A stretch of DNA of 34,759 bases from Deltaproteobacteria bacterium (lineage in GTDB: Bacteria; Desulfobacterota; Syntrophia; Syntrophales; UBA2185): NCBI GenBank assembly GCA_026388545.1, contig JAPLJS010000125.1, forward strand, positions 1 to 34,759. Direction: 5' to 3'. Positions 4,420 to 14,391 of this stretch are shown piece after piece (position 1 is the first letter of the stretch; each line of letters opens with the position of its first letter). The notes below the pieces were generated by a model. It was not told the DNA's origin, searched no databases, and worked only from the letters and a program-made list of their open reading frames with translations. The translations under genes were made by a program, and so were the position numbers.

Positions 4420-4493
4420 ACCCAACGCCGTGCTCTCCTGCCGGGTGGCGCGGAGCGGCAGCCCGGTCAGGAGCAGCAGTGATTAGGTTACAT
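4420..4493 (-). other. attC site
   Basis: Left core ACCCAAC is at 4420-4426 and right core GTTACAT at 4487-4493. A GC-rich imperfect stem (GCTCTCCTGCCGGG with CCCGGTCAGGAGC) lies between. The GTTACAT core should recur at the 5' end of the AbiGi-like cassette, but no such core is present near 5240-5290, so that cassette has lost one boundary. Confidence 0.85.
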
Positions 4494-5396: not shown

Positions 5397-8300
5397 TCAG
5401 CTGAGATGCACCTGCATTCCATTTCGGCGAAGCGATCCCTTGGACACCAGTTCTTTGATCACATCGCGGATAATGTCCGCACTCTCGCCGCCGAGACGTT
5501 CAATGCCGAAAAGTCTTGCAATTGCCATCGGTAGATATTCCTCGACAACACCGAACTGATCCTCTACGAAATATAGCACTGCAAGCGATAGTTCACTTGG
5601 AGCAATGTACTCAATGGGACGCCTCACCTTTTCTGTCGGTAAACGGAATGATTTAATTTGCCCATCAGGTGAGTAATAAAAAGATGGCTTGGCATTGTGT
5701 ATAATTGCGTGATTTTTCTCAGCGGACCGAAGCGCTTGTTTGATATTCGACTGAACATTCGATCCGGCCTTTGCTACACAATGAATTTCTTTCAGGCGCT
5801 TTACCAGAAAATCGTGATGGATTGGCCCCTCGATATTCACAAGGTCAATGATGGTATTTGAGAGTTCATCGCAGCACGATTCCTTGAGAAGAGCATCGCG
5901 GCTCAGTGTCTGTGATGGATTGAAAAGTACATAGGGCACACCTGGTTTATGCAGCCGTGTATCCTCCCTCTCAGATTTGGCTTTGCCGGACCGCTGAGGA
6001 GGTACCATTGTGATTGGGTCGGGATCGGGGGGTGGCACGTACACCGGACGCTCCACAGGTGCTTGTTGCGCTTGCTCGATACTCCTCAGTATACCGGCAA
6101 CCGCTCGTTCTCGATCATGAAACCACTCTGTTGACCAAACACGATGGATACGCCAACCCATGCGCTGGAGAACCAACTGCCGGAGCAAATCACGGTCTCT
6201 GGCAGTCCGTGAACTATGGTAGGTAACGCCATCACACTCAACGCCGAGAATGTAGCGTCGCTCGTCGCGATGGTCACGCACAGCCAAGTCGATACGGTAG
6301 CTGCTTGCGCCGACCTGCATGTCCACCTTAAGGCCGCGATCGACCAGTGCGGCGCGCACCGCCTCCTCGAACTCATTCGTTTCGGCGATTGTTTTGACGG
6401 GAGTCTCCGACGGCAGCTCACCACTCCGTTCCATGAATTCCAAAAAACTCCGGAGGGATAGGGCACCTCGATTATTCGGATTGACTCCACTGAGATCTTG
6501 CGCCCGTAAGCTTGAAACCAGAATGCACATCCATTTGGCACGAGTGATGAGGACATTCAAACGGCGCCATCCGCCATCGGTGTTTATTGGCCCGAAATTC
6601 ATGCTGAGACCACCAGCATTATCCCGGCCATACCCGACACTGATGATTATGGTATCCCGTTCATCGCCTTGGACGTTCTCCAGCGATTTGACGAACACGC
6701 CCTCGTGGCGGCCCTTGTCAAAAAATGATGATAGGTTTGGCCGTTGGAGCAACGCCTCTTCAATCGCGTCCTCAATTGCCTCCTTTTGGCTTAAGTTGAG
6801 AGCCACGATCCCAAGTGAACGTTCCGGATAGCGTACGAAATGCTCCAATGCCAATCGAGCAACCGATCGAGATTCAATCCGGTTTGTACGGCTGCGGCCA
6901 CGATCGTAAACGCCATCCTTAATGTACTCGAAGCGAACGCCCTGTCCTGCCGCACTCGTATTAGCTGACGGAAATGTGATGAGCTTATTGTCGTAAAAAA
7001 AGTGGTTTGAAAACTTAATGAGTCGCTCATCATGACTTCGATAATGCCACCGGAGATACGATTCATGGAATACCGGTACAACTGCTATGCAATCATCAAG
7101 AAGGGACTCTAAGGGAATCTGCCCTTCAGTCTCATCGTCGTCGTCCTCTTCCTCAGGTATGAGTGATGCTTCGAAAAACGACGTCGGCGGCAGTTGATTG
7201 GGATCGCCAGCCACAACAACTTGCGCAGCCCTCAGAATGGCTGGAATGGCCTCAGCTGTTGGCATTTGGGATGCTTCATCGAAGACCACAAGATCAAAAT
7301 GGAACACGTCAGGTTTCAGGTAGGTTGATACTGAAATGGGGCTCATCAGAAGGCACGGTTTTAAGGTTTGCAGAACGTGTGGGATTTCCGCAAAAAGCTT
7401 TCGTAGTGGCTTAATCCTTTTCCGCTTCTGCAATTCGCGGCGAAGGATGCCGACTTCACTTGCGCTCTCAGGAATGTCCTCCGAGGCACGAACACGTGCA
7501 GAGTTGGAGGAAGCAGTCCTTTGCGCCTGGGCTATTGCAAGTCGTCGGACTCTTTCGTCTAAAATTCTATACTTGTTGATAAGATCGTGTCCTTTGGCCG
7601 CAGTAAATCCCGAAAGTGATTGGCTGTGCTCTATCACACCGCTAATCCATAGATTGAGGAAGCGGCGCTTGAAAATGTGTGGTGCATTACCCGCGCTAAC
7701 CGAGCAAAAACTTTCCAAAAAAGTGGATAAGCGGCACGTTGCGCAGCATTTCAGTGCCCGATCAAGCAGCACCCACTCGCGCATCTTCGGCGTAGATGAA
7801 AGAAGAGATATGCAACGATTGGCAACTTCAGGCAGAGAAGATCTACTCGCAAGTTCTCCCCGAACGAACCCTTGTGGCCAATCATCATTTAATCGTTTTA
7901 TTGACGCTGGCAGAGCATTATCTGCGGATGGAATCAATAGAAGAATTTCTTTAGCGGCTCTTCGAAGATCAGCACTCAGGGATAAAATGGGTACTGCATC
8001 TTTGCCCGCGGCAGTGAATGCCTGTTTACATAGCCCTGCAACCGTGAAAGAAAGAGAGAAGTCTTTGAAAATGATCGGGCTCGATGCCACGGATGTTTCA
8101 AGGTATGAATCGATCCTCACTCGCTGTTCATCGAACCAACTATCTATCTCAGAGGCGCGGCGACACTTCTCGTAAAGAGATTTAATCCATTCTCGTTTGA
8201 ATTGGACGCCTGTGCAGAGAGACGATTTTGCCTGTTTTCGCCATTTCCAATAGGCCGGTTTGAAAAACGCGTGCCATGTCCCATAGCGATTGTAAATTGG

Positions 8301-10223
8301 AGAAAGAAGGGTTGCTGCATCCTTAAGCGGCCAAGCGATCGCTTTATGGATTTCAGATAAAAGTGAGTCAATCTCCGTCCTTTTTTCGGCTGCAATTGCG
8401 AAGGTCTTTGCCAGACTGGCAAGAGTTTCTTCATTGTGCAGCCACCAGTCCTTCGGAAGTCGCTCAGTTTCTGCAACGGCTGTAAGCGCTGTCCTGAAAA
8501 GAACCCATTCGTTGATAGACAAGAATCTGGCACCGGGAATAAGGCTTTCAAGCTGTTCAGCCTGCGGACTTATTTTCTGGTAAAGATCCGCAACGGCCTG
8601 TAATGAGGCAATGAGGCTTTCCTGTTCGACAAGCCCAAATCGCTCGGGTGAAAACCCCTTCCATGGATGGGTTGTCCTTTGGTCAAAGACCTCTGAGTTC
8701 ACTGCGAGTTCTTCGAGAGCCTGGATACACTGATCAACATCATTCTGAGTTGCGTCGAGTGGATTGGGCCAAGGTAATGCACCACGGACTTCAGAAACAT
8801 CTTTAAGATTGGCAAGCTGCGCATTTGCCCGGTACACTGAAAGCCCCAATGGTTGGCTGGGCAAATGGAGTTCCCGTGTATATGTGTTGAGTTCATCACG
8901 GACTTTCAATAGCGCCTGGAGTTCTCGATCCAATGCATCTCCATCGTGGCTTGCTTCGGCTTCCAATGTCCGCCGAAGTTCATCGATGATTTTCTGTTTT
9001 CCCGCCTTCGTGCTATGAGCTTCCAAGCAAAAACGTTGTAATCCTAGTTCCTTGATCCTCTCATGGACAACATTCAGTGCGGCCATTTTCGCACTAACGA
9101 ACAACACTTTTTTGTTTTTGCCCAGCGCATTTGCAATAAGATTTGCAATCGTTTGACTTTTTCCAGTACCTGGGGGACCGTGTACAACGACATGATGTCC
9201 TAAAGAGGTCAAGGTCAGCGCCTCAAGTTGACTGGAATCAGTTGGCAGCACTGGAATTGGTACAGTTGTAGGTGTCGGCAATGCATCGAGTTCATAGGGT
9301 AACGCTTCAGATTTACACATCAATTGTGTAGCTCTGGAAAGTGCGCCAACGACAGGGTGCTTGATGGCAACGTCAACAAGGGCATGAAGATCGCGGTAGA
9401 TGACCAAGGACTCGAAAGAGAAGGTGCTGAGCCAAACCTCGTCCGTTACCTTCCAGGACTGCCCCGCTACAGTACAACGAATTTGCTGAAGAAGCGTCAT
9501 CAACGACTGCTGGACCGGATCCTCAGGCAGCTCAGGCAGGTCAATCTTATGACGTTCGCGGAGATAGTACTCAAGTGCCGGGTTAATCTGAGCGTCCTCG
9601 TCTGCCATGCAAAGCCTGAGGGGCGCGTCCGGGCCTTTACTCTCAAACTCGCAAGGCGTCATCCAGAGGGGGCTCACCGATTCGCCAAATAGGTCGTCGT
9701 TCCACTGAAGCGCGCCAAACGTCAGGTACAAGGTCGTGACGCCGCGTTCCTCTATTGTGGTGCGCGCATTGTTGTGTATGCGTCGGAGCCTTTTTATGAG
9801 GTCGATGGGCTTTGCGTCGAGAGTAATATCTCCGGGCTCGATGACAAACTCGGACTCATCGTCAGACGAAATGAGCAACATTTGTTCAGACTGTTTCTTA
9901 CGTTTGTGGACGAGAGGCATCCGAAGTTGCTTCTCGTCGATCACGAACGTGGAAAAGAGGGCATTCATATCAGGTGTGATCACCTGAAATTTCGCAACAC
10001 GTGATCGGTTGAGTCCGATCAGGGGATTCGATTTGGTGAGATCGAGCACTCGATCTTGCCATCGCCGCATCTGTGCCTTGACGCGGGCAGCATCAATAGG
10101 GCCGAGCATTACGCTAGCCGATGGACCCGCTTTGTCAGCACCGGATTCCGGCGCATGTGCCCGCGTCATGTGATCTGTTGCTGAATTATCGTTTGCCATA
10201 GAAAATACATGAACGCTGCCCAC
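5397..10223 (-). CDS. DUF4011 - superfamily 1 helicase - Vsr-like nuclease - DUF3320 protein (Hhe-type defence protein)
   Basis: This is a very large 1608-residue protein. Domains in order: DUF4011-like region (about 45-250, with RRWQDRVLDLTKSNPLIGL); Walker A GPPGTGKS at about 348-355; a long helical insertion; Walker B FDEAS and GDPNQLPPT at about 975-1005; SF1 motif RRLNVLITRAKW at about 1210; a Vsr/MTES_1575-like nuclease at about 1280-1385 (YRIDLAV, GVECDG, RDRDLLRQ); and a DUF3320-like C-terminus. This architecture is known as a single-gene anti-phage system (Hhe in screening work), thought to couple helicase and nuclease action on foreign DNA. All key motifs are intact. The start could be GTG 10223 or ATG 10199 (MANDNS); neither has a strong ribosome site. 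It is far larger than usual integron cargo. Confidence 0.9.
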   Translation of the reverse strand: MGSVHVFSMANDNSATDHMTRAHAPESGADKAGPSASVMLGPIDAARVKAQMRRWQDRVLDLTKSNPLIGLNRSRVAKFQVITPDMNALFSTFVIDEKQLRMPLVHKRKKQSEQMLLISSDDESEFVIEPGDITLDAKPIDLIKRLRRIHNNARTTIEERGVTTLYLTFGALQWNDDLFGESVSPLWMTPCEFESKGPDAPLRLCMADEDAQINPALEYYLRERHKIDLPELPEDPVQQSLMTLLQQIRCTVAGQSWKVTDEVWLSTFSFESLVIYRDLHALVDVAIKHPVVGALSRATQLMCKSEALPYELDALPTPTTVPIPVLPTDSSQLEALTLTSLGHHVVVHGPPGTGKSQTIANLIANALGKNKKVLFVSAKMAALNVVHERIKELGLQRFCLEAHSTKAGKQKIIDELRRTLEAEASHDGDALDRELQALLKVRDELNTYTRELHLPSQPLGLSVYRANAQLANLKDVSEVRGALPWPNPLDATQNDVDQCIQALEELAVNSEVFDQRTTHPWKGFSPERFGLVEQESLIASLQAVADLYQKISPQAEQLESLIPGARFLSINEWVLFRTALTAVAETERLPKDWWLHNEETLASLAKTFAIAAEKRTEIDSLLSEIHKAIAWPLKDAATLLSPIYNRYGTWHAFFKPAYWKWRKQAKSSLCTGVQFKREWIKSLYEKCRRASEIDSWFDEQRVRIDSYLETSVASSPIIFKDFSLSFTVAGLCKQAFTAAGKDAVPILSLSADLRRAAKEILLLIPSADNALPASIKRLNDDWPQGFVRGELASRSSLPEVANRCISLLSSTPKMREWVLLDRALKCCATCRLSTFLESFCSVSAGNAPHIFKRRFLNLWISGVIEHSQSLSGFTAAKGHDLINKYRILDERVRRLAIAQAQRTASSNSARVRASEDIPESASEVGILRRELQKRKRIKPLRKLFAEIPHVLQTLKPCLLMSPISVSTYLKPDVFHFDLVVFDEASQMPTAEAIPAILRAAQVVVAGDPNQLPPTSFFEASLIPEEEDDDDETEGQIPLESLLDDCIAVVPVFHESYLRWHYRSHDERLIKFSNHFFYDNKLITFPSANTSAAGQGVRFEYIKDGVYDRGRSRTNRIESRSVARLALEHFVRYPERSLGIVALNLSQKEAIEDAIEEALLQRPNLSSFFDKGRHEGVFVKSLENVQGDERDTIIISVGYGRDNAGGLSMNFGPINTDGGWRRLNVLITRAKWMCILVSSLRAQDLSGVNPNNRGALSLRSFLEFMERSGELPSETPVKTIAETNEFEEAVRAALVDRGLKVDMQVGASSYRIDLAVRDHRDERRYILGVECDGVTYHSSRTARDRDLLRQLVLQRMGWRIHRVWSTEWFHDRERAVAGILRSIEQAQQAPVERPVYVPPPDPDPITMVPPQRSGKAKSEREDTRLHKPGVPYVLFNPSQTLSRDALLKESCCDELSNTIIDLVNIEGPIHHDFLVKRLKEIHCVAKAGSNVQSNIKQALRSAEKNHAIIHNAKPSFYYSPDGQIKSFRLPTEKVRRPIEYIAPSELSLAVLYFVEDQFGVVEEYLPMAIARLFGIERLGGESADIIRDVIKELVSKGSLRRNGMQVHLS

Positions 10224-12267: not shown

Positions 12268-12323
12268 TTATAACGAAAAAACCAGCCGGAGCGTAGCGAT
12301 CGGCTGTATTGACCTGGTTAGAT
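12268..12323 (-). other. attC site (56 bp)
   Basis: The left core is TTATAAC (12268-12274) and the right core GTTAGAT (12317-12323). CAGCCG (12283-12288) pairs with CGGCTG (12301-12306). The GTTAGAT core is the same as that at 13718-13712, the 5' end of the exonuclease cassette. Confidence 0.85.
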
Positions 12324-12327
12324 GACC

Positions 12328-13197
12328 TTATTTATTTTCTTTTTCTGCTAATGATACTAATTCTTTAAAGTCGCTCTCTCGAAGAATCTTTATTTGGTAA
12401 CCCTCAGCTATCAGCTTCTCTGCTTTTCTGTGTTTTGCGTATTTTACTTGACCTGGCGCAAGCTTTCTAACATCTACATCACCAACAACAACAATAGTAG
12501 TATTTTTTGTAACCCCAGTGGCAACGGCACAGCCAGTTTTTGCAACCATGTCAGCTGCTTCTCGTTTTGTAACCTCTAGTGTACCAGTAAACACCAACAC
12601 TTCACCATAGAGAAATCCATCAGGATTTCCTTCTCTTGAAATATTGGAAGTCGAAGGATCAATAGGCTGTTTAACGCGTTTAAGCCACCCATGTAAATCA
12701 ATTCCTGTCTTTTCGATAGCAGCAAGAAGAATGTGCGCCGCAGCTTTTGCATCCTCAAGGGCATCATGTTGTACAAATTGATACCCTAAAATAGCGCACA
12801 CTTTTTCAAGGCTGTACCCTCTGTATGCGCACTGCTCCCATGTTCTTTGGGTCACGCGCGCAGAGTCGAGCCACGTACATGTTGGCACACGCAGCTCATA
12901 CTTTTCACAGGCTTTATGAAGAGCCACTCGGTCAAAGTGGGTGTGACAAACGGCAATGCGATCATCCAGATAGCTGTAGATACGACTTGCGATATCCCGA
13001 AGTTTCGGAGCACCTTTTACTGTGCTCTCATCAATTCCGTGGATCGAAACATTGATCTCATCAAAGAAGTCCTCCGGATCAACATAAGTCTTCCATTCTT
13101 CCTGAATTGAACCATCCTTGAAGTGCACAAGTCCAACCTGGCAGATGGATGACCTATCCACATTTGCCGTCTCGAAGTCCAGGGCAACGAATTCCAT
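12328..13197 (-). CDS. DEDDh 3'-5' exonuclease (DnaQ-like) with C-terminal BRCT domain
   Basis: The protein has 289 residues. The N-terminal exonuclease carries ExoI DFETA (D7, E9), ExoII HTHFDRVAL and ExoIII QHDALEDA, all acidic residues plus the catalytic His present. Residues about 205-285 are a BRCT domain (GEVLVFTGTLEVTKREAADMV..., TTIVVVGD). The pattern matches epsilon-like exonucleases that trim 3' ends of DNA (or RNA) in repair or processing; the exact substrate is unknown. The ATG at 13197 follows GGAGGAGG. It is the second gene of a two-gene cassette, 31 bases after the zinc-ribbon gene, and stops just inside the attC core GTTAGAT. Confidence 0.92.
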   Translation of the reverse strand: MEFVALDFETANVDRSSICQVGLVHFKDGSIQEEWKTYVDPEDFFDEINVSIHGIDESTVKGAPKLRDIASRIYSYLDDRIAVCHTHFDRVALHKACEKYELRVPTCTWLDSARVTQRTWEQCAYRGYSLEKVCAILGYQFVQHDALEDAKAAAHILLAAIEKTGIDLHGWLKRVKQPIDPSTSNISREGNPDGFLYGEVLVFTGTLEVTKREAADMVAKTGCAVATGVTKNTTIVVVGDVDVRKLAPGQVKYAKHRKAEKLIAEGYQIKILRESDFKELVSLAEKENK

Positions 13198-13711: not shown

Positions 13712-13944
13712 ATCTAACGTCGGTGTTGAGCTGCCGTTTTTGGGAGCGGAAATTGCATTCACGCAATTGTCCGTGCCAAAAACCAAGCGTAGCGCAGCCG
13801 CCCCTTGGGGCGGGGTCCGCTCTAACGGCCTTGATAGGCGGAGCGCGAGCGGAGCCAGAAAGGCCGGGAGAGCGGATGCTCAACACCGACGATAGGACAG
13901 ATGGCCGACGGCCAAGCGCGCATCAGCAAGCGGTCCGTCCTATC
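13712..13944 (-). other. Compound attC-like site at the integrase end of the array
   Basis: The core ATCTAAC (13712-13718) is followed by GTCGGTGTTGAGC (13719-13731), which pairs perfectly with GCTCAACACCGAC (13878-13890). Nested hairpins lie inside. A degenerate core GATAGG (13891-13896) then opens a second inverted repeat, GATAGGAC with GTCCTATC (13891-13898 and 13937-13944). The outer core has decayed. The organisation copies that of the compound site at 227-472. Confidence 0.65.
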
Positions 13945-14101
13945 AGTGTAATAATTGGAAAATTGTCCGCCATATCACCCCCTATAGGTGGACGGATTGT
14001 CCACTTATTATTCTATCATACCATAAAACATGGGAAAACGGTAATATTTCTTTCTACTTATCGCAAATCGCCTGCCATATTCCACTTGTTAAGATAGTAA
14101 G

Positions 14102-14188
14102 ACGGTACCCACGGATGTCAAGACCACGGATACCTACACCCATGGAATGGTCCGAGATATCCGTAGCCTGCAAAGCCCCCTCGACCGC
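14102..14188 (+). pseudogene. Remnant of an integron integrase (intI) 3' end
   Basis: One plus-strand frame reads TDVKTT...YTH...QSPLDRI followed by TGA at 14186-14188. The strand-transfer tyrosine context (TTxxYTH) and the terminal SPLD motif are typical of the last 30 residues of IntI tyrosine recombinases. Reading upstream, the frame keeps weak similarity (VP in place of GH) to about 14102 and hits a stop at 14090. No other part of the integrase is visible. Its position and direction (divergent from the cassettes, at the array's leading end) are exactly those of intI. More than 90% of the gene has been deleted, so the product is inactive. Confidence 0.75.
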
Positions 14189-14391
14189 ATCTGACAACCA
14201 CCGGTTAATTTCAAAATGATAATCAAAATACATCCGTCATGGTAACAATACATTTTCTAAAGAATCTAACCCTCTATGAGGGCGCCGTGGACTGATTATT
14301 GAAACCCCGTTTCTTAAAAAGAGTAGGCTTTTATGTATCTTTTTGCTATTGTGCCGATCAATCATATCACCTTTTCATCGAGGAAACAGTC
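14189..14391. other. Integron/chromosome junction, no gene seen
   Basis: This AT-rich spacer separates the intI remnant from the next gene. It holds a short CCCTC/GAGGG hairpin near 14270-14282 and a lone ATCTAAC (14264-14270) without a partner. Nothing else is recognisable. Confidence 0.5.

Follow-up and report, generated by a model that had tools for sequence, protein, structure and literature searches.

In one genome survey, pseudogenes made up nearly one third of the integron integrase (intI) genes, some of them with large insertions or deletions (Nemergut et al. 2008, PMC2426708), and in Xanthomonas integrons intI has repeatedly been inactivated, truncated or deleted, with arrays that are more stable (PMC12444791). 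Clusters of attC sites lacking an integron integrase are termed CALINs (IntegronFinder; PMC9024848), and in Treponema phagedenis attC sites persist in integron remnants without intI (PMC3607928). A literature search found no paper on the integrons of Syntrophales. The locus described here lies in a stretch of 34,759 nt (the window) from a Syntrophales-type genome and, judged from its sequence, clearly represents a familiar type of integron decay, providing a new example in which both flanks of the deletion are mapped. As in intI pseudogenes and pseudo-integrons (PMC2426708; PMC12444791), a chromosomal integron retains its array beside an inactivated intI; in contrast to these, inactivation in the window was by a large deletion that left only 27 codons, and the leader and attI are kept on its other side. 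The window resembles a CALIN (PMC9024848) in having an attC array without an integrase gene in cis, but still holds a molecular remnant proving descent from a complete integron. It likewise shares the persistence of attC sites after intI loss with T. phagedenis (PMC3607928), though no intI was found there whereas the window retains both tail and attI. The feature is very probably what is left of an integrase gene from a chromosomal (sedentary) integron, some 0.9 kb of whose interior has been deleted, and mapping both flanks against an intact relative documents an integron turning into an integrase-less cassette array.

The remnant of the integrase gene is found at 14111-14194 on the plus strand and comprises 27 codons and a TGA stop (IntI homology at 14111-14191, stop codon at 14192-14194), with the catalytic-type tyrosine in a YTH motif and an SPLDRI end. 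It translates as TDVKTTDTYTHGMVRDIRSLQSPLDRI-stop (codons GAT GTC AAG ACC ACG ... CGC ATC TGA), the full frame reading DVKTTDTYTHGMVRDIRSLQSPLDRI-stop. The peptide matches positions 289-315 of 315 of the IntI profile TIGR02249 (E=2.5e-4, 20.5 bits), the sole family matched in an NCBIfam search, and residues 294-320 of 320 of IntI4 (2a3v), its sole PDB match at E<=10 (E=0.031, whole sequence); Pfam gave no match for the 30-aa peptide because the piece is too short. At the DNA level, the 3' end of intact intI aligns with the window over 100 nt at 86% identity (E of about 1e-28 to 1e-26). The match of the tail to IntI is far above chance. Membership in TIGR02249 calls for a full-length protein above the curated cut-off of 265 bits, with a catalytic core and an IntI-specific patch; with 20.5 bits and some 0.9 kb missing, the remnant is a pseudogene and not a member protein. 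The first-pass annotation had taken a frame TDVKTT...YTH...QSPLDRI, followed by a stop, for the C-terminal end of IntI, and the codons together with the profile, structure and DNA matches bear this out; the span it gave, 14102-14188, differs slightly from that of the homology and its stop codon. Its placement of the fragment where intI belongs also holds, as the plus-strand tail lies at the leading edge of the attC array and the cassettes, with their minus-strand genes, are divergent from it. This is the standard orientation of cassettes relative to intI. At such lengths, remnants of this kind can go unnoticed in protein-family searches like Pfam. A search of the window against Rfam found nothing.

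The nearest full-length relative of the vestige, recovered by a family-level search, is the intact 357-aa integrase of locus L043 (G005 contig 349), a true IntI that scores 438 bits against a cut-off of 265 bits and has the C-terminus DVKTTEIYTHVMARDIRNLQSPLDRI. BLASTN aligns L043 with the window in two blocks, one over the tail (window 14112-14211 to L043 3509-3410, 86% identity) and one over the leader (window 13931-14102 to L043 4598-4428, 73%). The 918 nt between these blocks in L043 are absent from the window, where about nine ambiguous bases stand instead; the lesion is therefore an internal deletion that begins near the start codon and reaches codon ~331 of about 357, sparing the leader and the attI side. 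The comparison with relatives bearing an intact intI, which the first-pass annotation had proposed, thus bears out its claim that the rest of the gene was deleted as regards some 0.9 kb of coding sequence, but not as regards the attI and leader side; the tail was all that this annotation had recognized. The deletion junction maps to 14103-14112 on the plus strand and is uncertain by several nucleotides, as both the leader and the tail are similar to CCACGGA at this point. The weak points of the comparison are a leader identity to L043 of only 73% and a junction known from the MAG assembly alone.

The retained attI/leader region (13938-14102, plus strand) contains two imperfect copies of TTCCACTTATTAnnATATTAnGATA and is closer to loci L165 (89%) and L168 (85%) than to L043. 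In many relatives, the conserved leader block begins abruptly at (A/T)(A/T)CAGTGTAATAA, and the sequence to its left differs. Hairpins proximal to attI, at 13889-13945 in the window and 4697-4585 in L043, have the core GATAGG instead of GTTAGG and sit at the boundary between attI and the first cassette; the same core is seen in L162, L163, L170 and L175, with GTTAGG in other relatives. A 73 bp stretch of attI-like leader, sharing 95% identity with the window, occurs in L167 (5560-5632; G135:C49) beside an unrelated ORF and with no intI, and represents a solo attI-like sequence. No orthologous locus combining the right-hand flank of the 14111-14194 vestige with an intact intI was found. The flavodoxin gene on that flank is present in relatives; in the nine family genomes inspected for it, its neighbourhood showed neither an integron nor a vestige.

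The tail itself bears signs of decay. An in-frame TAA occurs at 14090-14092, and no start codon lies between it and the tail. Isoleucine and valine of the IYTHV motif are invariant in the tails of 72 intact relatives and have become threonine and glycine in the window (TYTHG); altogether four of the 27 tail residues are unseen at their column in any of these relatives. These changes fit a drifting pseudogene. A mini-protein formed by in-frame fusion of a start codon to DVKTT was considered and rejected, as the window has ACG in place of a start codon and the TAA lies just upstream.

The neighbouring minus-strand array contains genuine attC sites, which were called by a custom scan and by eye rather than by IntegronFinder. 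The first attC-like site spans 13712-13897 (~186 nt; core GTTAGAT; arms GTCGGTGTTGAGC / GCTCAACACCGAC) and belongs to a small first cassette without an ORF. Further minus-strand sites were called by a gapped scan at 4420-4488 (ACCTAAT...GTTGGGT; scan score 16.2), 2800-2934 (GTCTAAC...GTTAGCT) and 1819-1905 (AGCTAAC...GTTAGAT). Two stricter scans had returned the 13712 site only, plus one chance match, and the gapped version added three sites; shuffled array sequence yielded no attC site at a score >=15. Other probable sites were seen by eye, for example one below the scan threshold at 12272-12323 (minus strand; ATCTAAC...GTTATAA), which over part of its length shares 90% identity with a site of the L045 cassette array. 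Genes of the cassette region include one for a DEDDh exonuclease with a BRCT domain (12328-13197, minus strand; Pfam, PADLOC) and one for a 1608-aa helicase/nuclease (5397-10223, minus strand; DUF4011, AAA_11/12, MTES_1575; PADLOC candidate PDC-S37, 1216 bits), and Pfam and PADLOC identify further cassette-type genes for an AbiGi-like piece and a DUF6602/PD-DExK protein. The array is rich in such defence-like genes (PDC-S37-type helicase/nuclease, AbiGi-like, NucC-like and DEDDh).

The source genome (G000) is a MAG of 3.28 Mb in 128 contigs, 100% complete by markers with 3.25% contamination. No intact integron integrase was found in this 128-contig assembly, in which gaps are possible; integrase models matched only two IntI tails and Xer-type recombinases in which the stretch between model positions 187 and 240 is lacking. 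The second tail, of 46 codons and another IntI type, lies at about 1584-1724 of contig 7 (L003/L007), and its immediate downstream neighbour shares 79% identity with the gene that follows an intact intI on contig 62 of G006 (L045), so that for this tail the orthologous intact locus is known. With one tail in the window and one on contig 7, two different integrons of this genome have therefore lost their integrase. The window thus falls short of a complete integron in its broken intI, having an attI-like leader and attC sites, and conforms to a CALIN or degraded integron in that no intact integrase occurs nearby or in the assembly, gaps permitting.

Under the favoured reading, the ancestral locus would have had intI on the plus strand, immediately to the right of attI and facing away from a cassette array on the minus strand. 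An internal loss of about 0.9 kb, presumably in a single event, would then have fused the leader, close to the start codon, with codon ~331, so that attI, the leader, 27 codons of the C-terminus and the stop codon survived. Such a remnant would make no integrase and would be drifting, leader and tail presumably being without function. With no cis-encoded integrase for the cassettes, and none found in the rest of the genome, integrase-driven change of the array should have come to an end, barring an integrase that arrives or that acts in trans. A frozen array, as the first-pass annotation had suggested, is plausible and agrees with the finding that G000 holds no intact intI, as far as its assembly shows; an integrase acting in trans, or one lying in an assembly gap, could still move the cassettes. 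If the array is frozen, its phage-defence-like genes would be fixed.

A possible but rather unlikely variant is that the leader and attI, and perhaps the tail, were kept because they still work, for example as a Pc promoter for the cassettes or as an attI for an integrase in trans. The leader and attI outlast the coding sequence in many relatives, and functional IntI can mobilize CALINs in trans (PMC12444791); however, the promoter role is only putative, no intact integrase was found in G000, and part of the leader has also been lost in some relatives. A false join in the MAG between the leader of one integron and the tail of another is highly improbable, even though this is a draft genome of 128 contigs with some contamination and the nearest relatives of leader and tail differ: the two parts have no long repeat in common that could cause a false join, a comparable junction exists in the independent assembly L160, and the tail residues themselves are degenerate in the manner of a pseudogene. 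That the tail derives from an XerC/D-like or phage tyrosine recombinase, many of which have the YTH motif, deserves almost no credence and is already refuted by the 86-89% DNA match to intact intI genes, besides which no Xer or phage-integrase model in Pfam or NCBIfam matches the peptide and the SPLD end is typical of IntI.

Truncation or loss of intI is common in the order, whose members are mostly uncultured syntrophic bacteria. A DNA search of 155 genomes of the order with the leader plus tail gave matches in 35. Intact or nearly intact intI loci were present at L168, L171-L174, L176, L178, L180 and L186, some of them with a stop in the N-terminal leader part; internal deletions were seen at L161 and L185, and leader or N-terminal fragments only at L163, L167, L169, L170, L175, L177, L179, L191-L194, L196-L199 and others. 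At L160, the leader is joined to the same tail codon region as in the window, and the two right breakpoints coincide within alignment uncertainty. A deletion shared by both was rejected, as the left breakpoints differ (second leader repeat in the window, first in L160); the two are probably independent, and are not evidence for a hotspot.

Of the 24 vestiges that carry a leader and have unrelated downstream flanks, 11 have their ends inside a 36-nt interval and five inside one of 7 nt, at CCCATCC close to codon 80; against uniform break positions this gives p=1.5e-4 and p=0.009, respectively, in a test that ignores shared ancestry and alignment-end bias. Breaks near codon 80 (CCCATCC|GCGG) occur at L191, L193, L194, L198, L199, L234, L236 and others, and several truncation junctions adjoin REP-like sequence (GGGGACAG / AAACGGTTCTATTTT). 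In view of these biases and the abutting REP-like sequence, the cluster is reported as unexplained and not as a finding. It is doubtful that intI loss in the order is non-random, with truncation recurring near the same places through a sequence-directed process or through selection keeping the attI/promoter side; if it were, this would constitute a genetic route by which active integrons become stable cassette arrays that keep attI. The leader with its 80-codon fragment was also considered as a mobile unit and rejected, since G039 carries the sequence found downstream of the intact intI of G040, pointing to deletion in place.
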